Shown here: positions 4,470-63,478 of the stretch, in pieces
How positions within the stretch are numbered: the stretch's first letter is position 1
Layout of the letters: each line of letters opens with the position of its first letter
Assembly: GCF_001652725.1 (NCBI RefSeq)
Contig: NZ_LWHJ01000027.1
Span: 124,001-188,000 of the forward strand
Direction: 5' to 3'
From: Pedobacter psychrophilus
GTDB lineage: Bacteria > Bacteroidota > Bacteroidia > Sphingobacteriales > Sphingobacteriaceae
DNA length: 64,000 nucleotides
Notes under the pieces: model-generated
Seen by the model: the letters and a program-made list of their open reading frames with translations, nothing else
The model's database searches: none
What the model was told of the DNA's origin: nothing
Position numbers and translations under genes: made by a program

Positions 4470-4534
4470 CATTTGCAATGATAGATAATTAGAGATAATA
4501 AATTATTGTTTTTTAATTATTTGGAAATTAGTTT

Positions 4535-4625
4535 GGGCGTTTTAACACGCTATTCACTATATCTTTTTTTGCTATTTGCATCATGGCAAGAAGCAAAAAA
4601 AGGATGCCGTTTCTATCGTTAACGC
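4535..4625 (+). repeat. Dispersed structured intergenic element, copy A
   Basis: It begins GGGCGTTTTAACACGCT, has the core CACTATATC, then an A/T-rich hairpin (TTTTTTTGC ... GCAAAAAAA), then GGATGCCGTTTC and ends ATCGTTAACGC. The outer GGGCGTT and AACGCTC ends can pair. The same layout recurs at 5972, 32602, 40265 and 63379. This copy lies between divergent genes. Confidence 0.85.
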
Positions 4626-4747
4626 TCATATATCATGGGAAATTTAAATTGTTAAAATTATAAGCTCAACCAATAAAACCATGTTTTCTAAGATTAAGTT
4701 TTAATGTTTAAAACCCAAATTGCTTTATCATAATTGGTGGTTTTTAA

Positions 4748-32465: not shown

Positions 32466-32601
32466 AAATATGGTTTTGATTTGTAATTAGATACAATTTG
32501 CGGATAAATATTACAACAATACTTTTTTTTATGTATTAATTGATGTGATTTTTAAATTTTATATCAAATTTATTATGATTGATTTTTGAAATTATTTATT
32601 T

Positions 32602-32682
32602 GGGCGTTTTGACACGCTTTTCGCTATATCTTTTTGTCCGCCAGCCGGAGGACAAAAAGGATGTCGCTTCAATCGTTAACGC
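32602..32682 (+). repeat. Dispersed structured intergenic element, copy C
   Basis: GGGCGTTTTGACACGCTT, core CGCTATATC, hairpin CTTTTTGTCC/GGACAAAAAG around GCCAGCCGGA, then GGATGTCGCTTC and AATCGTTAACGC. The stem has a perfect 10-bp pairing. Confidence 0.85.
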
Positions 32683-32739
32683 ACCTTTTAAAATGGAAAA
32701 TGAAATTCAAGAATTAATTACAGAAAAACCAAAGTTTTT

Positions 32740-37754: not shown

Positions 37755-39104
37755 ATGAACAAGACGCTTAGAAATGTACTTATAGGAGTTGGGGTTTTAG
37801 TGTTGGTAGCAATTATTGCCAATAAAATGGGCTGGATAGGAAAAAGCAAAGCAGTGCAAGTTGCTATCTCCAAATCTGAACAAAAAGACATTGTGGAAAC
37901 CGTTTCTGCTAGTGGCAAGATACAGCCGGAAGTAGAAGTTAAATTAAGTCCAGAAGTTTCTGGGGAAATTGTAGAATTAACCGTAAAGGAAGGTGATGCA
38001 GTAAAGAAAGGTCAGTTACTTTGCCGTATTAAACCAGATATTTTAGCATCAGGATATGATAGAACGGTTGCATCTTATAATGCACAAAAAGCAACAGTTG
38101 CAAGTGCTCAACAACAAATTGTAACTGCGGAAGCTAATTTAAAAAACATTGAGGCAAGGTTTAAAAGAAATCAGACACTTTACAAGGATAAAGTGATTTC
38201 TGCTTCAGAATTTGATGCGGCCCAAGCAGAATATTTAACCTCAAAATCTAATCTTGAAAGTGCAAAACAAAGCTTAATAGGCGCAAAATTTGGTTTGCAA
38301 CAATCTGGTGCTGGAGTTAAAGAAGCTAGTGATAACTTAGCTAGAACAAGCATTTACTCTCCTGTTGATGGTATCGTGTCAAAACTTTCTGTAGAGCAAG
38401 GAGAGCGAGTGGTTGGAACTGCGCAAATGAGCGGTACCGAGATTATGACCATTGCAAATCTAAGTAGCATGGAAGTAAATGTTGATGTAAATGAAAACGA
38501 TATTAACCGTTTAAGTTTAGGAGATACCGCAATTATTGAAGTTGATGCTTTTATGGATAAAAAATTCAAAGGTGTAGTAACAGAGATTGCTAGTTCTGCA
38601 AATGTGGTAGGTACTACTGCAGATCAGGTTACCAACTTCGCTGTAAAAGTTAGAATTTTGCAAGATTCGTACGATAATTTAAAAAACAAAGGCAATTCTG
38701 ATTCTCCTTTCCGCCCTGGATTGTCTGCCACGGTAGATATTCAAACAGAACGAACCAATGGTTTGATAGTTCCAATACAATCTGTAACAATAAGAGAAGA
38801 CGATAAAGATAAAAAAGCGGACAATAAGGTTGATGCACCAAAAAATGCTGACGACGATAAGAAAAAAGACAAAAATAAGCCTAAAGCAAAAGAATATGTG
38901 TTTGTTGTGGAAGCTGGGAAAGTGAAACAAGTTGAAGTAAAAACTGGCATTCAAGATGATCAGAATATAATTATTTTATCAGGATTAAAACCTGGACAAC
39001 AAGTTGTTAGTGCACCATACGCTGCTATTTCTAAAACTTTAAAGGATAAAATGGATGTAGAAGTGGTTGATAAATCTAAATTATTTACTCCAGAGAAGAA
39101 GTAA
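37755..39104 (+). CDS. Periplasmic adaptor (HlyD/MacA/RND-adaptor family)
   Basis: 449 residues: an N-terminal TM anchor (RNVLIGVGVLVLVAIIANKM), the lipoyl-like half EVSGEIVELTVKEGDAVKKGQLLC, a long coiled-coil hairpin, the second half YSPVDGIVSKLSVEQGERV and beta-barrel plus membrane-proximal domains. The C-terminal region contains an unusual stretch of about 40 charged residues (Asp, Lys) around residues 345-380, just before EYVFVVEAGKV. It is cotranscribed with the TolC homologue and ends in a terminator, so MacB or RND pump is absent from this operon. Confidence 0.9.
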   Translation: MNKTLRNVLIGVGVLVLVAIIANKMGWIGKSKAVQVAISKSEQKDIVETVSASGKIQPEVEVKLSPEVSGEIVELTVKEGDAVKKGQLLCRIKPDILASGYDRTVASYNAQKATVASAQQQIVTAEANLKNIEARFKRNQTLYKDKVISASEFDAAQAEYLTSKSNLESAKQSLIGAKFGLQQSGAGVKEASDNLARTSIYSPVDGIVSKLSVEQGERVVGTAQMSGTEIMTIANLSSMEVNVDVNENDINRLSLGDTAIIEVDAFMDKKFKGVVTEIASSANVVGTTADQVTNFAVKVRILQDSYDNLKNKGNSDSPFRPGLSATVDIQTERTNGLIVPIQSVTIREDDKDKKADNKVDAPKNADDDKKKDKNKPKAKEYVFVVEAGKVKQVEVKTGIQDDQNIIILSGLKPGQQVVSAPYAAISKTLKDKMDVEVVDKSKLFTPEKK

Positions 39105-39129
39105 TAAATCATTTTAAATTGATTATTTT

Positions 39130-39164
39130 GTCCCAATCTGATTTTTCAGATTGGGACTTTTTTT
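39130..39164 (+). terminator. Terminator after the efflux adaptor gene
   Basis: GTCCCAATCTGA and TCAGATTGGGAC form a perfect 12-bp stem with a TTTT loop, then T7. Confidence 0.92.
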
Positions 39165-39215
39165 ATTTACAAGAGTCTAATTAAAAACACCAATTTATAG
39201 TACAATCATTTTAAT

Positions 39216-40223
39216 ATGAAGGATAGCTTAAATAAAATAGCAGTTATTGGAGGGGGAAGTTGGGCTACTGCAATAGTGAAAATGTTATCGGATAATATAA
39301 CGGAGAAAGAAATTTTTTGGTGGATGAGAGATGAAACTGCCGTTAAACATATTTGTAAATACCATCATAATCCTAATTATTTATCTTCTGTAGAGATTAA
39401 AGTTAAGCCAGAAAATATTTTTACTGATATTAAAAAAGCCATCGCTTCAGCTGAAATGGTTTTATTGAATGTACCAGCTGCATTTTTGAAACAATCATTA
39501 AAAGAAATTACCGCAGATGATTTAAAGGGTAAGAAAATCATATCTGCTATTAAGGGTATTGTTCCGGATGAGAATCAAATTATCGGCGAATTTATGCATC
39601 AACAATATCAAATCCCTTTAAATGATATTATTGTTATTAGTGGGCCTTGTCATGCCGAAGAAGTTGCATTAGAAAAATTAAGTTACCTAACCATTGCTTC
39701 ACAAGACTTGAACCTAGCTTGTAGGTTTGCAAAAATGATCAATACCCGTTACATTAAAACAAATAGCAGTGATGATATTTATGGAACAGAGTATGGTGCA
39801 GTATTAAAAAATATTTATGCAGTTGCTAGCGGCATTTGTCATGGGGTTGGCTTTGGAGATAATTTCCAGGCGGTATTGATTTCTAATGCCATAAGAGAAA
39901 TGAGCAGGTTTGTTGATGCCATTCATCCAATTACTCGTGATATAAAAGAATCAGCCTATCTAGGCGATTTATTGGTGACTTCCTATTCGCAATTTAGTCG
40001 TAATCGAACTTTTGGAAATATGATTGGAAAAGGTTATACCGTAAAATCAGCTCAATTAGAAATGAATATGGTTGCAGAAGGGTATTATGCTGTGAACTGT
40101 ATTCATCAAATCAATAAAATACATAAAGTGAATATGCCAATTGCCAGAGCTGTTTATGCCATATTATATGAAAAACATGCTCCCAATATAGAAATGAAGT
40201 TACTTGCTGATTTACTTTCTTAA
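39216..40223 (+). CDS. gpsA: NAD(P)H-dependent glycerol-3-phosphate dehydrogenase
   Basis: 335 residues. The Rossmann start AVIGGGSWATAIVKML has the GxGxxxA form (GGGSWA), LNVPAAFL follows, then ISGPCHAEEVA and the catalytic Lys in GAVLKNIYAVASGICHGVGFGDN, with LGDLLVTSYSQFSRNRTFG as the C-terminal substrate block. It makes sn-glycerol 3-phosphate from DHAP for phospholipid synthesis in the cytoplasm. It stands alone, with repeat copy D downstream. Confidence 0.93.
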   Translation: MKDSLNKIAVIGGGSWATAIVKMLSDNITEKEIFWWMRDETAVKHICKYHHNPNYLSSVEIKVKPENIFTDIKKAIASAEMVLLNVPAAFLKQSLKEITADDLKGKKIISAIKGIVPDENQIIGEFMHQQYQIPLNDIIVISGPCHAEEVALEKLSYLTIASQDLNLACRFAKMINTRYIKTNSSDDIYGTEYGAVLKNIYAVASGICHGVGFGDNFQAVLISNAIREMSRFVDAIHPITRDIKESAYLGDLLVTSYSQFSRNRTFGNMIGKGYTVKSAQLEMNMVAEGYYAVNCIHQINKIHKVNMPIARAVYAILYEKHAPNIEMKLLADLLS

Positions 40224-40264
40224 TTTAATAAGCTGTTTTTTATAAATCTGTGTTTAAATAATTT

Positions 40265-40343
40265 GGGCGTTTTAACACGCTATCAGCTATATCTTTTTTT
40301 TGCTGAAAACGCAAAAAAAGGATGCCGCTTTTATTGTTAACGC
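40265..40343 (+). repeat. Dispersed structured intergenic element, copy D
   Basis: GGGCGTTTTAACACGCTA, core AGCTATATC, hairpin TTTTTTTTGC ... GCAAAAAAA with a short loop, then GGATGCCGCTTT and TTGTTAACGC. It lies between the convergent gpsA and hisIE genes. Confidence 0.85.
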
Positions 40344-40389
40344 TTCTATTCAACAACAGATTTCGGTAAATTATAATCTACTTATTTAT

Positions 40390-40977
40390 TTACTGATGTC
40401 TTGATTCTAAATTCTTAGCAATATCAGCTAAGGTCAAGTTTTTTTCTTTTAATAAAACCAATAGATGAAAAACTAAATCAGAAGATTCATTAATTAAATC
40501 TATTTCAGTTTCCGCCAAAGCAGCAATAACAGTTTCTACTCCTTCTTCACCAACTTTCTGAGCAATTTTATTTAATCCTTTTTCTCTTAAACTATTTACA
40601 TAAGATTTAGCGGTAGGATTTTCATATCTGTCTTTAATGATGTTTTCAAGCTGGAAGATAAAATTATGATTGTAACCAGTATCAAAACAACTTCTTGTGC
40701 CTTTATGGCAAGTTGGTCCAACCGGATTTACTTTAATTAATATAGTATCATTATCACAGTCTAAAGCGATTGATATTACATTTAAGAAATTACCACTTTC
40801 TTCTCCTTTTGTCCATAAGCGATTTTTAGTACGAGAGAAAAAAGTTACTTTCTTTTCTTCTTCGGTTTTTTGATAAGCTTCTTCATTCATGTAGCCTAAC
40901 ATCAAAACTTCTAAAGTTTGTTCATCCTGAATAATCACAGGCACTAATCCGTTGCTTTTTGTAAAATCTATATTCAC
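40390..40977 (-). CDS. hisIE: Bifunctional phosphoribosyl-AMP cyclohydrolase / phosphoribosyl-ATP pyrophosphatase
   Basis: 195 residues: the HisI domain (about 1-110) with TFFSRTKNRLWTKGEESGN, zinc ligands in DCDNDTIL and GPTCHKGTRSCF, then the all-helical HisE domain with KVGEEGVETVIAA. It catalyses steps 2 and 3 of histidine synthesis. It is the last gene of the operon. The GTG start (40977) overlaps the TGA stop of the inserted toxin gene as GTGA, so its translation is coupled to the toxin-antitoxin pair. Confidence 0.94.
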   Translation of the reverse strand: MNIDFTKSNGLVPVIIQDEQTLEVLMLGYMNEEAYQKTEEEKKVTFFSRTKNRLWTKGEESGNFLNVISIALDCDNDTILIKVNPVGPTCHKGTRSCFDTGYNHNFIFQLENIIKDRYENPTAKSYVNSLREKGLNKIAQKVGEEGVETVIAALAETEIDLINESSDLVFHLLVLLKEKNLTLADIAKNLESRHQ

Positions 40978-41279
40978 TGTTTTGGAAATTTTAATTTGTT
41001 TGGGTTTTGGCGAGTATCAAAAACTCTTAAAATGAAAATATCTTTATCCATCATATTATATAGTAAACTATTATGCTTTGTAATAACACATTGTCTAATT
41101 CCATTATTCTTATAAATGATTGGATATAATTTAGGATTGTTTTGGATTTTATTGATATGATAATTTAAATCTTGAACAAAATCTTCGGCGATATTTAAAT
41201 TCCATTCTGAAATAAGATAATCTAATAAATTTGATAAATCTTCTTTTGATTCTGGAGACCAAATTATTTCATTATACAT
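40974..41279 (-). CDS. RelE/ParE-family toxin inside the his operon
   Basis: 101 residues with the ParE/RelE fold pattern: EIIWSPESKEDLSNLLDYLI, then DLNYHINKIQNNPKLYP, IRQCVITKHNSLLYNMM and ILRVFDTRQNPNKLKF. It would act on gyrase or mRNA. It overlaps the antitoxin gene by 8 bases and overlaps hisIE by GTGA, so the module is built into the operon between hisF and hisIE, where no gene is usual. It is distinct from the ParDE pair at 29625-30168. Confidence 0.85.
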   Translation of the reverse strand: MYNEIIWSPESKEDLSNLLDYLISEWNLNIAEDFVQDLNYHINKIQNNPKLYPIIYKNNGIRQCVITKHNSLLYNMMDKDIFILRVFDTRQNPNKLKFPKQ

Positions 41280-41517
41280 TATTTAATTTATTCTTAACCA
41301 TTGACATTACATCATGATGAGGAATTCCTTTGCCTTGTTTTATTGATTCTAAAGCTTCAAAAATTCCTATCTGCTGTTCTTTGCTTAATAAATTCCATCC
41401 TTCTTCATCTACTTCTTTATTTGGATTTTCTTTTAAGATGATTATATCCATATCCGCTAAATCTTGTAACAACTTCTTCGCTTTTGGGTTTATAAGTTCT
41501 ACAGTGAATGTTTCCAT
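41272..41517 (-). CDS. Antitoxin of the his-operon module
   Basis: 81 residues, METFTVELINPKAKKLLQDL at the start, then DMDIIILKENPN and IFEALESIKQGKGIPHHDVM. The layout resembles the short antitoxins of RelE/ParE modules (a DUF2683-like N-terminus and a C-terminal helix). There is no clear ribbon-helix-helix. It starts 15 bases after the hisF stop and overlaps the toxin by 8 bases. The assignment rests on context and on the toxin. Confidence 0.75.
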   Translation of the reverse strand: METFTVELINPKAKKLLQDLADMDIIILKENPNKEVDEEGWNLLSKEQQIGIFEALESIKQGKGIPHHDVMSMVKNKLNNV

Positions 41518-41532
41518 GTTTAAAGATAAAAA

Positions 41533-42672
41533 TTAAATCCTTATTTCAATTTGATTGTTCTTCAATAACGCTTTCAATTCAGGTATCAAAATCTCGCCAT
41601 AATGGAAAACCGAAGCTGCTAAAGCTGCATCTATATTGGTTTTTTGGAAAACATCAATAAAATCCTGACTAGAGCCAGCTCCTCCAGATGCAATAACAGG
41701 AACGGAAACCATTTCATTTATTTGCTTTAAAAGGATATTATCAAAACCAGATTTAGTACCATCTTTATCCATTGATGTTAATAATATTTCTCCTGTACCA
41801 CGTTCTTCTGCTTCCTTAATCCAATGTTGTGTTTGCAATTCGGTAGCAATTCTGCCACCGTTTAAGTGGACAAAATCGCCATTAGGCAAATTCTTTGTAT
41901 CAACTGCTAAAACCACAAACTGAACTCCAAAAGCATCTGCCAATTCATTGATTAATTGTGGTCTTCTTACAGCAGCAGAATTAATTGAAATTTTATCTGC
42001 TCCAGCATTTAATAAGGCTTCTGCATCTTTTAATTCTGAAATACCACCACCTATTGTGAAAGGAATATTGATTTGTCTTGCAACAGATTTTACCATTTCA
42101 ATTGTGGTTTTTCTTTTTTCATGAGTAGCTGTTATATCCAAAAAAACCAACTCATCCGCACCTTGCTGCGAATATTGCCAAGCCAATTCAACAGGATCAC
42201 CAGCATCACGTAAATCCACAAAATTGACTCCTTTAACTGTACGTCCGTCTTTTACGTCTAAACATGGAATTATACGTTTAGCTAAACCCCCCAACCCCCT
42301 AAAGGGGGATTGCATGGCTTCTTTTATTGCTTTCAATACTTTCTCAATGTTTTTAAAAACCTCATTATTAGTAAACCTAATTACTTTTAATCCTAAATTT
42401 TCTAATTCAATTTGTCTTACATTATCATTTTCTAAAATTTCAGGAAGGTTATGAATACTTCCATCTAATTCGATAATTAATTTATGTTGATGACAATAAA
42501 AATCAGCAATATAATTTAATAAAGGATGTTGTCTTCTAAATTTACAACCTAACTGGTTTCCGCTTAAATATCCCCATAAAATTTTTTCCGCTTCGGTTTC
42601 TCTACCTCTTAATTCTTTAGCATTTTGGAATATAATTCTATTGGCACCACAAAACATATTTTCCTTTTTCAT
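41533..42672 (-). CDS. hisF: DUF559 endonuclease-fold domain fused in frame to HisF
   Basis: 379 residues. Residues 1-120 are a DUF559 domain of the very-short-patch-repair/PD-(D/E)xK fold: [17 protein letters not shown] with D57, [12 protein letters not shown] with E68 and D70, and a C-terminal helix [14 protein letters not shown]. Residues about 130-379 are a complete HisF ([40 protein letters not shown]), the cyclase half of imidazole glycerol phosphate synthase. A normal HisF begins MLAKRIIPC; here GGT stands where ATG should be, and the sequence before it comes from a C-rich repeat. Either the fusion is made, or HisF starts at ATG 42315 (MQSPF), giving a 10-residue extension. HisF works with HisH at 43485. 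Confidence 0.93.
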
Positions 42673-42731
42673 AGATTATAAAATCTTAATAGTCGCCAAT
42701 CTAATTTCCCTTAAGGGGTTAGGGGTTTTAA
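42284..42731 (-). mobile_element. Putative DUF559 mobile element with imperfect inverted terminal repeats
   Basis: Left end on the plus strand AAACCCCCCAACCCCCTAAA then GGGGG; right end, read from the minus strand, AAAACCCCTAACCCCTTAAG then GGAAATTAG. The ends are imperfect inverted repeats, each with an internal palindrome (CCCCCTAAAGGGGG and CCCTTAAGGG), and bracket the DUF559 domain. The right end begins right after the hisA stop (42734). No target duplication can be assigned. Confidence 0.6.
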
Positions 42732-42733
42732 TT

Positions 42734-43483
42734 TTATATGGAAGATAATTGCATTAAATTCCAGTTTTTAATTTCTTCAATGGAAATCCTGTTCTCATAA
42801 ATTGCTTTTCCAACCACACAAGATTCTATTTTAAACTCATTTAACTCTTCAATATCATTCATAGAACTAATACCACCTGAAGCTATTAATTTGATAAATG
42901 GAGAATGAGATAAAAGTTTTTTATATAAATCAACTCCAGCTCCGCCTAATTTTCCATCCTTATTAATATCTGTACATAAAAACCTATAAAAGCCAAGATT
43001 TAAGCACTTATCAATATAATCCATCAACTTGATTGGAGAACTTTCCATCCAGCCAGAATATTTGATTACTTCATCCAAAACATCAACAGCCACAACCACC
43101 TGATCACTACATTTGGTTTTATTACACATTTCATTTCCTAATTCTTCTAAGAAAGTTGGATTTGTAATAGCTTGTGTACCAACAATAACTCGGTGAATCC
43201 CAGCGTCAATTAATTCCTTAACTTTATCAATACTTCTAACACCGCCACCGTATTGAACTTTCATATCGGTTTTTTTGATGATATCAAATAGATATTTTTG
43301 ATTGCTAAAATCGCCTTTGGCACCATTTAAATCTATAATATGAACAAATTCTGTCCCGTTAGATTGATAAGTTTCTATTTGCTCTTCTAAAGAAACTTCA
43401 TATTGTGTAACTTGGTTATAATCGCCTTCTACTAAACGGACAATTTTTTGGTTTAAAACATCAACGGCAGGAATTATGTACAT
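42734..43483 (-). CDS. hisA: Phosphoribosylformimino-AICAR ribotide isomerase
   Basis: 249 residues, a TIM barrel with IIPAVDVLNQKIVRL (catalytic Asp), the phosphate loops VQYGGGVRS and LIASGGISS, and the second catalytic Asp in VAVDVLDEVI. It catalyses step 4 of histidine synthesis (ProFAR to PRFAR). The HisA/HisF similarity is the usual internal duplication. The stop is at the edge of the DUF559 element. The ATG overlaps no gene but lies 1 base after the hisH stop. Confidence 0.94.
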   Translation of the reverse strand: MYIIPAVDVLNQKIVRLVEGDYNQVTQYEVSLEEQIETYQSNGTEFVHIIDLNGAKGDFSNQKYLFDIIKKTDMKVQYGGGVRSIDKVKELIDAGIHRVIVGTQAITNPTFLEELGNEMCNKTKCSDQVVVAVDVLDEVIKYSGWMESSPIKLMDYIDKCLNLGFYRFLCTDINKDGKLGGAGVDLYKKLLSHSPFIKLIASGGISSMNDIEELNEFKIESCVVGKAIYENRISIEEIKNWNLMQLSSI

Positions 43484-43484
43484 T

Positions 43485-44081
43485 TTAAATTTTTAAGTGT
43501 GCAAAATTTTGAAGTAGTTTTTCACCAGCTTCACCAGATTTTTCTGGGTGAAACTGTACTCCATAAAAGTTATTTTTTTTTATACTGGCAGAAAATTTTG
43601 TTCCGTAATTACAGTACGAAATGGTAAATTTAGAATTAAATTCTATATAATAGGAGTGAACAAAATAAAAATACGTTTCATCTGCAATACCTGCAAACAG
43701 AAGATTTTCATTTTGAACAAATATTTGGTTCCAACCCATATGAGGAACTTTTTTTGAAATGTCTTCTTTAAATTTTAAGGTTTTAACAGGAATAATACCT
43801 AACATTTCAGAATTTCCTTCTTCAGAAAAATCAGTTATCAATTGCATTCCAACACAAATACCTAAAACAGGTTTAGTAAGGCTTTTTATTTTAGGAACTA
43901 ACCCAGTATCTATCAGTTTCTTCATTGCAGCACCAGCATGTCCAACACCAGGAATAATAATCCGCTCATACAAATCGAAATCAGATTCAGAATTAATCAT
44001 TCCATATTCTAAATTCAATCGCTCTAATGCAGCAGTTAAAGAGAAAATATTCCCAGCTCCGTAATTAACTATTCCTGTCAT
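43485..44081 (-). CDS. hisH: Imidazole glycerol phosphate synthase, glutaminase subunit
   Basis: 198 residues from ATG 44081 (TGIVNYGAGNIFSLTAAL); a start at 44102 would add a non-conserved extension. Class I glutamine amidotransferase motifs: LGICVGMQL with catalytic Cys, and the His-x-Glu pair in GVQFHPEKSGE. It hands ammonia to HisF. The spacer before it contains a hairpin of heptamer repeats. Confidence 0.94.
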   Translation of the reverse strand: MTGIVNYGAGNIFSLTAALERLNLEYGMINSESDFDLYERIIIPGVGHAGAAMKKLIDTGLVPKIKSLTKPVLGICVGMQLITDFSEEGNSEMLGIIPVKTLKFKEDISKKVPHMGWNQIFVQNENLLFAGIADETYFYFVHSYYIEFNSKFTISYCNYGTKFSASIKKNNFYGVQFHPEKSGEAGEKLLQNFAHLKI

Positions 44082-44093
44082 TTTTTTTAGATA

Positions 44094-44160
44094 AAAGAAC
44101 AAAGAATAAGGATTATAGGAAGTCTTTATTCTTTGCTCTTTGTTCTTTGTTCTTTAAAAT
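44094..44160 (-). repeat. Heptamer array forming a hairpin between hisB and hisH
   Basis: On the plus strand AAAGAAC, AAAGAAT, AAGGATT ... then TATTCTT, TGCTCTT, TGTTCTT, TGTTCTT, all in period 7. AAAGAACAAAGAATAA pairs with TTATTCTTTGCTCTTT in 15 of 16 positions, so the array folds. Confidence 0.65.
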
Positions 44161-44163
44161 GTT

Positions 44164-45300
44164 TTACAACAGCCCTTTTGTACTTGGTAAACGCATATTA
44201 TTTATATCTCGTTTTACTGCCATTTTAATTGCCTTTGCAAATGCTTTAAAAATTGCTTCTATTTTATGATGCTCGTTATCGCCTTCTACCTTAATATTTA
44301 AGTTAGATTTTGAAGCATCTGAAAATGATTTAAAGAAATGATAAAACATTTCTGTTGGCATATCGCCAACTTTTTCTCGTTTAAATTCTGCATCCCAAAC
44401 AATCCAGTTTCTACCACCAAAATCTATAGCAATTTGTGCTAGGCAATCGTCCATTGGTAAACAAAAACCATATCTTTCGATCCCTTTTTTATCGGCTAAA
44501 GCCAAAGCAAAAGCTTCTCCTAAAGCAATTCCTGTATCTTCAATTGTATGATGTTCATCGATATGTAAATCACCTTTAGTATGCACCGTCAAATCAATAC
44601 CACCATGACGGGCAATTTGATCCAACATGTGATCGAAAAAATTTAATCCAGTTTTAATATTAGAATTTCCTTTTCCGTCAAGGTTTATTTTGATGAGGAT
44701 GTCGGTTTCGTTAGTTTTTCTGATATGCTCAATTTTACGGTCTCTAACTTTTAAAAAACGATAAATTTCATCCCAGTCGGAAGTTTGAATAGCTAAAACT
44801 TCATCAACATTATCTATTTTGTTTTGAATTTCTGCAGCACCTAAATCTGGATTGTTATTTAACCAAATTGCTTTTGCTCCCAAGTTTTTAGCTAAAACAA
44901 CATCGTTTAATCGATCACCAATCACAAAAGAATTTGCTAGATCATATTTTTCTTTATCAAAATAATGAGTTAATAAAGCAGTTCCAGGCTTACGAGTAGG
45001 AACATTATCTTTTGCAAAAGTTTTATCAATAATTATTTCGTTAAAGCGAATGCCTTCATTTTCTAAAGTTTGTATGATGAAATTTTGAACTGGCCAAAAA
45101 TTTTCTTCTGGGTGCGATGATGTTCCCAATCCATCTTGATTAGTTACCATTACCAATTCAAAATCAGCTTCTTTAGCTATTTTAGACAAATTAGTGATGG
45201 CACCTGGATAGAAAACCAATTTTTGAAAAGAATCAATTTGTTCATCTTCTGGCTCAAGAATTAAAGTGCCATCTCTATCTATAAATAATAATTTAATCAT
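44164..45300 (-). CDS. hisB: Bifunctional histidinol-phosphatase / imidazoleglycerol-phosphate dehydratase
   Basis: 378 residues. The N-terminal HAD phosphatase (about 1-170) has [12 protein letters not shown] with nucleophile and general acid Asp, and [17 protein letters not shown]. The C-terminal IGPD domain has the two manganese-binding HxxxHHxxE-type blocks, [14 protein letters not shown] and a corresponding [16 protein letters not shown]. It catalyses steps 6 and 8. The start codon overlaps the hisC stop by 8 bases (45293-45300). Confidence 0.95.
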
Positions 45301-46345
45301 TTTTCAATTTTTTAAGACTGTTGATTAAGGCTTGATTCTCCTCAAATGTGCCCACAGTAATCCTTAAACATCCTTCGCAAAGCTTTATTTTGTTTCTATT
45401 TCTAACTATAATTCCCTGCTCTGTTAAATATTTGTAAATGCCATCTGCATCAGCAGTTTTAACTAAAATAAAATTAGCATCTGATGGGTAAATATCAATT
45501 ACAAAATCAAAACTTTTTAATGCTAAAACTAAAGTATCTCTTTCCTTCAAAATTTCTTTAATCCAGTTGTTAATTTTCTCTACATTTTGCAATGCCTCCA
45601 AAGCCAATTGCTGAGAAGCCTCATTAATGTTATAAGGAGGTTTAACACGATTAAAAACCTCGATAATTTCTTCACTTGCAAAAGCCATCCCAACTCTTAA
45701 AGCGGCTAATCCCCAAGCTTTTGACAATGTTTGTAAAACCACCAAATTAGCATACTCAGTTAATTCCTGGATAAAAGTTTTTTGTCGAGAGAAGTTGATA
45801 TAAGCTTCGTCAACCACAACAATTCCGTTAAAGTTTGCCAGTAAAGTTTCAATATCCTCCCGATTAATAGAATTTCCAGTTGGGTTATTTGGTGAGCAAA
45901 TAAAAATTAGTTTAGTGTTTTTATCTATTGCTTCGGCTATGCCTTCTAAATTTAACTGATATTCTTCGGTAAGATTTATTCGCTTAATTTCCACATCATT
46001 GATATTTGCAGAAACTTCGTACATGCCATATGTTGGCGGTACAATGATCACATTGTCAACGCCTGGATTGCAAAAACTTCTAAATAAAATATCAATCGCC
46101 TCATCACTTCCATTTCCTAAAAAAATATTTCTAGCAGGAACTCCTTTTATTTCACTTAATCGCATCTTAACAGCATAAGCCATAGGATCAGGATAGCGAT
46201 GGTAATTTGTAGATAATGGAGAACCAAACGCATTTTCGTTGGCATCTAAATATACAGAAGCTTCGCCCTTAAATTCGTCCCTTGCGGATGAATAAGGTTT
46301 AAGGGATTTTATATTTGGTCGAATAATGGTATTTAATTCAAACAT
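45293..46345 (-). CDS. hisC: Histidinol-phosphate aminotransferase
   Basis: 350 residues, fold-type I PLP enzyme: [46 protein letters not shown] and the Schiff-base Lys in [20 protein letters not shown]. Catalyses step 7. Coupled to hisB by the 8-base overlap; separated from hisD by an 80-base spacer made of imperfect 9-bp units (AGTTCATTA-like). Confidence 0.95.
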
Positions 46346-63358: not shown

Positions 63359-63378
63359 TGTAAACATTATTGTTATTA

Positions 63379-63478
63379 GGGCGCTTTTACACGCTTTTCA
63401 CTATATCTTTTATTGCTATTTGCTAAATGGCTATAGCAATAAAAGGATGCCGTTTCAATCGTTAGCGCAAATAAGGGT
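63379..63478 (+). repeat. Dispersed structured intergenic element, copy E
   Basis: GGGCGCTTTTACACGCTT, core CACTATATC, hairpin CTTTTATTGCTAT/ATAGCAATAAAAG (perfect 13 bp) around TTGCTAAATGGCT, then GGATGCCGTTTC and AATCGTTAGCGC. It lies between convergent genes. Confidence 0.88.

Follow-up and report, generated by a model that had tools for sequence, protein, structure and literature searches.

In Pedobacter psychrophilus, a DUF559 gene lies between hisA and hisF, and its frame runs on into HisF. What kind of insert is this, and how is HisF still made from a gene whose start codon is gone? We addressed both questions in the window, i.e., the whole 64,000-nucleotide stretch that was analysed (contig NZ_LWHJ01000027.1, positions 124,001 to 188,000), and in genomes of the same genus, family, and phylum. 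The insert probably belongs to a family of small mobile elements found in Bacteroidota, which are coding, have hairpin ends, bear DUF559, and insert in frame.

Results

A DUF559 unit bounded by inverted hairpin repeats occupies the hisA-hisF junction

The minus-strand ORF 42672..41533 encodes 379 aa and is open throughout, with DUF559 and then HisF in one frame. A Pfam search of this ORF assigned residues 16-120 to DUF559 (PF04480, E 1.5e-32), whose score of 112.1 bits against a curated cut-off of 20.6 places it in the family, and the part from residue 133 to HisF (PF00977, E 1.2e-80). The DUF559 nuclease part, for which a homing-endonuclease-like fold is predicted, extends over 42313..42672 from ATG 42672, and HisF from residue 2, located by family search and frame and open from DUF559, over 41533..42285; both are on the minus strand, as is hisA directly upstream (42734..43483, stop at 42736-42734). 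The whole inserted unit most likely spans 42286..42729 of that strand, i.e., 444 nt or 148 codons that lie between the hisA stop, 4 bases away, and HisF codon 2; the empty junctions of relatives are part of the basis for these bounds. The left terminal repeat (minus strand, about 42708..42729, AAAACCCCTAACCCCTTAAGGG in gene sense) is non-coding here, and the right one (minus strand, about 42286..42308, CCCCCTTTAGGGGGTTGGGGGGT in gene sense) is translated as the DUF559-HisF linker. The two ends are imperfect inverted copies that pair over 14 nt with 79% complementarity, and each contains a hairpin. When up to 3 mismatches were allowed, the end pattern matched the window at a single site, with 3 overlapping matches where chance predicts 0.14. 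The arrangement described in the initial annotation, a DUF559 ORF between inverted C-rich hairpin ends that is continuous in frame with HisF, is thus confirmed by ORF, Pfam, and repeat-pair analyses, although the repeat edges it gave, 42284 and 42731, lie 1 to 2 bases past the likely ends.

HisF was matched in 17 of the 18 genus genomes, and 15 of these 17 had the empty hisA-hisF junction that had been expected in relatives; the insert occurred only in the window genome, where it is the single DUF559 copy, and in Pedobacter cryophilus. GGT precedes the codon of HisF residue 2 (TTA, 42285-42283), as annotated, but the codon it replaced was not necessarily ATG, because the 15 empty junctions, read by eye, carry TTG (8), GTG (5), or ATG (2) at the start position. 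In P. cryophilus, a TAA interrupts the DUF559 frame and HisF is intact, with an in-frame ATG ahead of it at the position equivalent to the ATG in the DUF559 tail of the window (42313..42315, minus strand). The latter, noted in the initial annotation as 42315, is real and is a possible start for near-native HisF.

No Rfam intron family was found at E up to 1 in window positions 39000-46000, and no intein splice residues were seen by eye at the joints. Elsewhere in the his operon, the interval 40974-41517 between hisF and a hisIE-type gene holds a gene for a ParE-type toxin (PF05016) and, as its partner, a small ORF for which no family match was found. A dispersed repeat at 40269-40351 matched the Rfam Flavo-1 RNA (42.2 bits, gathering threshold 42), and a similarity comparison located related stretches at 4496-4631, 32563-32688, and 63376-63474. 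In one other genus genome (G001), hisF was matched in two overlapping pieces, one with a TAG, possibly a frameshift or an assembly error.

DUF559 lies in frame in many unrelated proteins

At E 0.001, DUF559 matches were obtained in 15 of the 18 genus genomes and in 241 of the 399 genomes of the family, some of them weak and Vsr-like; at E 1e-15, 126 of the 296 genomes of the phylum had one. Of 14 control genomes, 2 matched in the genus and family searches and 1 under the stricter threshold. We counted 112 DUF559 domains at the genus and family loci, i.e., 28 with HisF, 29 alone (a few partial), 18 and 6 at a first and a second site of LeuRS, 16 in an IcmF-type mutase, 9 in a DEXH helicase, 2 in MetH, 2 at the end of TruB, and 1 each with HisH and a type ISP protein. 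These numbers are not rates, because the family loci were taken nearly by score order as the best rows of a longer list (G097 and G193 were passed over), and the 50 phylum loci were the 30 best-scoring plus 20 chosen for large frames. The phylum loci added HsdR, HsdM, N6_N4 and Eco57I-type methylases, AddA/RecB-like helicases, RecG, a PurQ-like protein, HemF, N-formylglutamate deformylase, and an M23 peptidase as hosts, and named genomes added HisA (2), ArgB (2 confirmed, a third by eye), and a second HisH. The hosts of family copies were identified by BLAST to one reference per host, and the labels were checked by family search in one or two examples each for LeuRS (at both sites), MetH, TruB, HisH, HisA, ArgB, IcmF, and the helicase; NCBIfam did not confirm the ArgB part of L287 or the ISP label of L017, which resembles a locus (L220) that carries the Pfam ISP domain.

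DUF559 sits at the protein end in HisF, HisH, HisA, ArgB, HemF, and TruB, and internally, in frame, in LeuRS (at both sites of a single protein in L133), IcmF, the DEXH helicase, MetH, HsdR, RecG, and others, apparently without inactivating the host genes. A palindromic unit in frame in unrelated proteins, as seen here, is the hallmark of coding palindromes such as the Rickettsia palindromic elements (RPEs). DUF559-HisF fusions were present in several Sphingobacteriaceae genera, at least 26 among the matches listed, and 25 of 80 named loci had an unbroken fusion frame.

Three loci deserve separate mention. An HsdR (L242) carries GIY-YIG, a second homing-type nuclease, together with DUF559 in the same linker between its N-terminal and helicase domains. 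Genome G265 has three near-identical stand-alone DUF559 genes in tandem with hairpin repeats between them (L061). An ArgB with N-terminal DUF559 (L334) contains a further insert, NNPPLGDRG, which is short, in frame, and, by eye, hairpin-like.

Most DUF559 copies lie between two C-rich hairpins

Counting hairpins whose first arm is C-rich up to 200 nt from the domain, and omitting six weak or partial domains (L014, L015, L016, L019, L020, and L021) and copies with less than 150 nt of flank, we found them on both sides in 141 of 154 DUF559 copies, which are related and therefore not independent; one or both sides lacked a hairpin in the other 13. Both-sided hairpins occurred in 3 of 148 control windows 700 nt away, in 9 of 154 in the opposite direction, and in 2 of 154 shuffled flanks. 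Internal copies had both hairpins almost without exception (48/49 in the family, 25/26 in the phylum), with both ends inside coding frames, and so did most stand-alone copies (21/24 and 12/17, respectively). The flanking repeats expected in other genomes were thus found, but the rule is weaker outside Sphingobacteriaceae, where 26 of 46 named loci had both hairpins (control 0/38), versus 24 of 29 within the family (control 0/29). The end sequence differs by lineage, being of the CCCCyAACCCC-TAAA-GGGG type at hisF and of the GCCCCACC..AA.CCTCCCC type at LeuRS site 2.

Genome-wide, the pattern CCCCN{2,5}CCCCN{2,6}GGG gave 21 overlapping matches in the window genome and 0 in both reversed controls. 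P. cryophilus, the genus relative with the same insertion, likewise has such repeats elsewhere (25 overlapping matches, controls 0), so the refuting case set out in the initial annotation, a close relative that has the fusion but lacks repeats elsewhere, did not arise. The five genus genomes with CCCC-type DUF559 ends (G000, the window genome; G003, P. cryophilus; G010; G012; and G013) had 21-197 matches and the remaining 13 had 0-38, with 0-5 in reversed controls across genomes (Mann-Whitney p 0.003 for groups set after the data were seen). Among the 13, G007 had 29 matches, mostly tandem arrays of a different motif; G011 had 38 yet no DUF559 hit; and G006 had 5, no excess over its own control.

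The same ends occur without DUF559

In the window genome, paired ends bound about 85 nt between metH and metF, adjoining the metF ATG; both neighbouring genes were confirmed by family search. This mini-copy was present in 1 of 16 genus genomes and absent from the other 15 junctions, some of which differ upstream. At LeuRS site 2, the window genome has a 27-aa in-frame copy with paired ends and no DUF559; in relatives, this site is empty or holds either the full DUF559 insert or a lone hairpin of about 11 aa, which gives a series of forms, all in frame. By eye, the insert at that site replaces two codons of the empty site, with no duplication visible. Two Mucilaginibacter loci (L099 and L272) have HisH fused to copies that lack DUF559. 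Terminal inverted repeats in several copies per genome, as found here, are what defines MITEs and related transposons. In the LeuRS of three genus genomes (L002, L003, and L004 in G010, G013, and G012, respectively), DUF559 is seen by eye amid repeated in-frame units of about 30 codons, hairpin-ended and without DUF559.

The predicted fold is of homing type, and the hisF insert is mainly inherited

The AlphaFold model of DUF559 had a pLDDT of 86 (that of the whole fusion, 74, and was little used). Foldseek matched it to 3hrl (2.5e-7), a DUF559-like endonuclease that was matched by sequence too (E 1.4e-16), and to I-Bth0305I (3r3p, 1.4e-4); weaker matches were mitoribosomal chains (1.5e-3 and up), AbaSI (1.1e-2), and 1vsr (6.2e-2). 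By these matches, the model has the I-Bth0305I/Vsr catalytic-domain fold that characterizes EDxHD homing endonucleases.

A tree of 107 DUF559 domains, which has few columns and many unresolved forks, groups copies by insertion site, with 11 changes among 10 site labels (minimum 9, shuffled mean 67). DUF559 and HisF distances are correlated (r 0.81, n 26, 0 of 2000 permutations), and on the HisF tree the fused state needs 11 changes versus a shuffled mean of 17, with unfused genomes added on purpose. Given this correlation and these state changes, the hisF insert is old, mainly inherited, and often lost; and since DUF559 clusters by site and mostly follows HisF, movement at hisF is rare or old. 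A recent single capture, as the initial annotation had implied, is therefore rejected on the spread of the fusion over genera and the joint divergence of DUF559 and HisF; a homing-like element has support in the hairpin flanks, the DUF559-less copies in the same genome, the fold match, and the empty junctions of relatives.

Two hisH copies are known in all. The one in G382 groups in the tree among the hisF copies of its genus; it has 83 of 102 residues in common with the hisF copy of G382 and 83 of 103 in common with the one in G338. Since hisH carries no insert in G338, these matches point to a move into hisH within that lineage. Further, DUF559 of G043 joins two Mucilaginibacter copies with support 95, a group that HisF rejects (p-AU 0.0002). 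HisF also rejects the two Mucilaginibacter rows as a pair (p 0.0015), and a wider group that leaves out G043 is not rejected by DUF559 (p 0.136); all these groups were named after the tree was seen. The G043 conflict hints, not securely, that hisF loci have exchanged the element.

These data bear on the strongest alternative, a homing endonuclease gene proper, in which DUF559 cuts the empty junction (hisA-hisF, LeuRS, or IcmF), spreads from strain to strain by break repair with a specificity of its own in each site lineage, and the hairpins are secondary. Clustering by site, the I-Bth0305I fold, and the G043 conflict speak for it, as does the assignment of a DUF559 gene to the EDxHD homing family in the available part of one report (PMC9403480). 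Nevertheless, the DUF559-HisF distance correlation is strong, the G043 conflict is weakened by its post hoc groups and by the p 0.0015 and p 0.136 tests, and DUF559-less copies elsewhere need more than homing. We regard this alternative as unlikely.

DUF559 is under purifying selection, and HisF survives its decay

E14, Q33, D42, E53, and D55 (within-domain numbering) show no variation across 27 HisF, 52 internal, and 25 stand-alone copies, and H59 is kept in all except one internal copy. In HisF fusions, DUF559 has a median dN/dS of 0.16 (89 usable of 325 pairs) and HisF one of 0.02 (55 usable), and DUF559 is thus under purifying selection.

The initial annotation proposed that HisF is kept by fusion or by an internal start, and we found support for both. 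ATG, GTG, and TTG are absent between the DUF559 domain and HisF in 22 of 28 fusions; a start there is therefore not strictly required, and starts within the last DUF559 helix are possible. A fusion is not strictly required either, because in six loci (L270, L285, L295, L299, L338, and L339) the DUF559 frame is broken while the HisF frame behind it is intact and has an ATG, GTG, or TTG in frame 13-31 codons upstream of HisF; some of the breaks may be sequencing errors. These decayed loci would need a start in the DUF559 tail.

Purifying selection, the invariant catalytic residues in fused copies, and joint descent with HisF are also what ordinary domain accretion would predict, i.e., DUF559 recruited because it serves the host protein and kept by selection. 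This explanation fits poorly with inverted ends that form hairpins, with hosts that are unrelated, with patchy loss, with intact HisF behind a broken DUF559, and with DUF559-less copies sharing the same ends, and we consider it even less likely than homing proper. A reading of the hairpins as nothing more than intergenic transcription or RNA signals, with DUF559 a neighbour, is already disfavoured and highly improbable: other repeats do gather at these sites, but the hairpins lie within coding frames at both ends of internal insertions and mini-copies have paired ends. The repeats in question are unrelated to the element and occur at the hisA-hisF junction (L165, L167, L168, and L169) or LeuRS site 1 (G000, G005, G007, and G059), so that the junction and the LeuRS loop collect several repeat kinds.

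Discussion

The best reading of the insert is an in-frame coding element resembling the Rickettsia palindromes, whose full form carries a homing-type nuclease. In its anatomy it reads as a transposable element with non-autonomous copies, in its nuclease as a homing-type enzyme, and in its hosts as a coding insertion of the Rickettsia style. The both-sided hairpins, the unrelated in-frame hosts, the LeuRS site 2 series, the metF and HisH mini-copies, the hisH copies, the invariant residues, and the I-Bth0305I fold support a mobile element; site clustering, co-descent with HisF, the 13 copies without full hairpins, the looser rule outside the family, G011, and G006 count against it.

The element would consist of two inverted C-rich terminal repeats, whose inner parts form hairpins, around a DUF559 gene of Vsr/I-Bth0305I fold. 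DUF559 probably cuts DNA to mobilise the element, and we infer that host repair copies it in. Given ends with open frames, a landing in frame in a loop, a linker, or a protein end would add protein and leave the gene alive, and in essential genes only in-frame copies would persist. Shorter copies without DUF559 retain the ends and were presumably moved in trans. At hisF, the unit sits where the native start codon was, and the product would be either the DUF559-HisF fusion (about 43 kDa) or a protein started in the DUF559 tail (ATG 42315).

More broadly, we see about even chances that a phylum-wide class of autonomous mobile elements inserts in the form of translatable domains. Its members would carry a nuclease between hairpin ends, would lie in frame and unspliced in essential enzymes (LeuRS, HisF, MetH, and RecG), and would have nuclease-free mini-copies that write new loops and N termini into proteins. 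The present insert pairs Rickettsia-style insertion with a candidate enzyme in culturable bacteria, and the host genes hisF, leuS, and metH have simple complementation assays. Two questions thereby become testable: how a mobile element can last within an essential gene when no splicing removes it, and how insertions give rise to new pieces of protein and new sites for starting translation. Annotation is affected as well: in Bacteroidota, the added part of many long LeuRS, HisF, MetH, and HsdR proteins may be an element rather than a native domain.

Our literature search found no description of a DUF559-bearing hairpin element and nothing on DUF559 together with inverted repeats, and we know of no family that combines transposable anatomy, a homing-type nuclease, and coding insertion. 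Several known systems each share a part. REPINs accompany RAYT transposases; like REPINs and MITEs, the element has short copies with inverted ends, here DUF559-less, but the sole gene of the inserted unit is DUF559, not a RAYT. Free-standing homing genes need no intron or intein. With EDxHD homing endonucleases such as I-Bth0305I the element shares the predicted nuclease fold (3r3p) and conserved host genes. It differs in its small domain, inverted hairpin ends, and lack of an intron or intein, whereas the known members, as far as the available part of one report goes, are described with long DNA-binding parts of several domains and occur mostly in phages or introns (PMC3943268). VsrA of Caulobacter crescentus also has a Vsr-like DUF559 domain, but it is a stand-alone protein proposed for mismatch repair, and the accessible portion of its description mentions no repeats or fusions (PMC12907096).

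The closest likeness is in the manner of insertion. To our knowledge, the in-frame palindromes of Rickettsia have no known mobilising enzyme. They have been known since 2000, and RPEs, like the present element, are palindromic repeats in frame in unrelated protein genes, some as translational fusions; they are about 150 bp and, in the part of the source available, no mobilising enzyme is named for them (PMC10969869), whereas the full form described here, in another phylum, encodes a nuclease.
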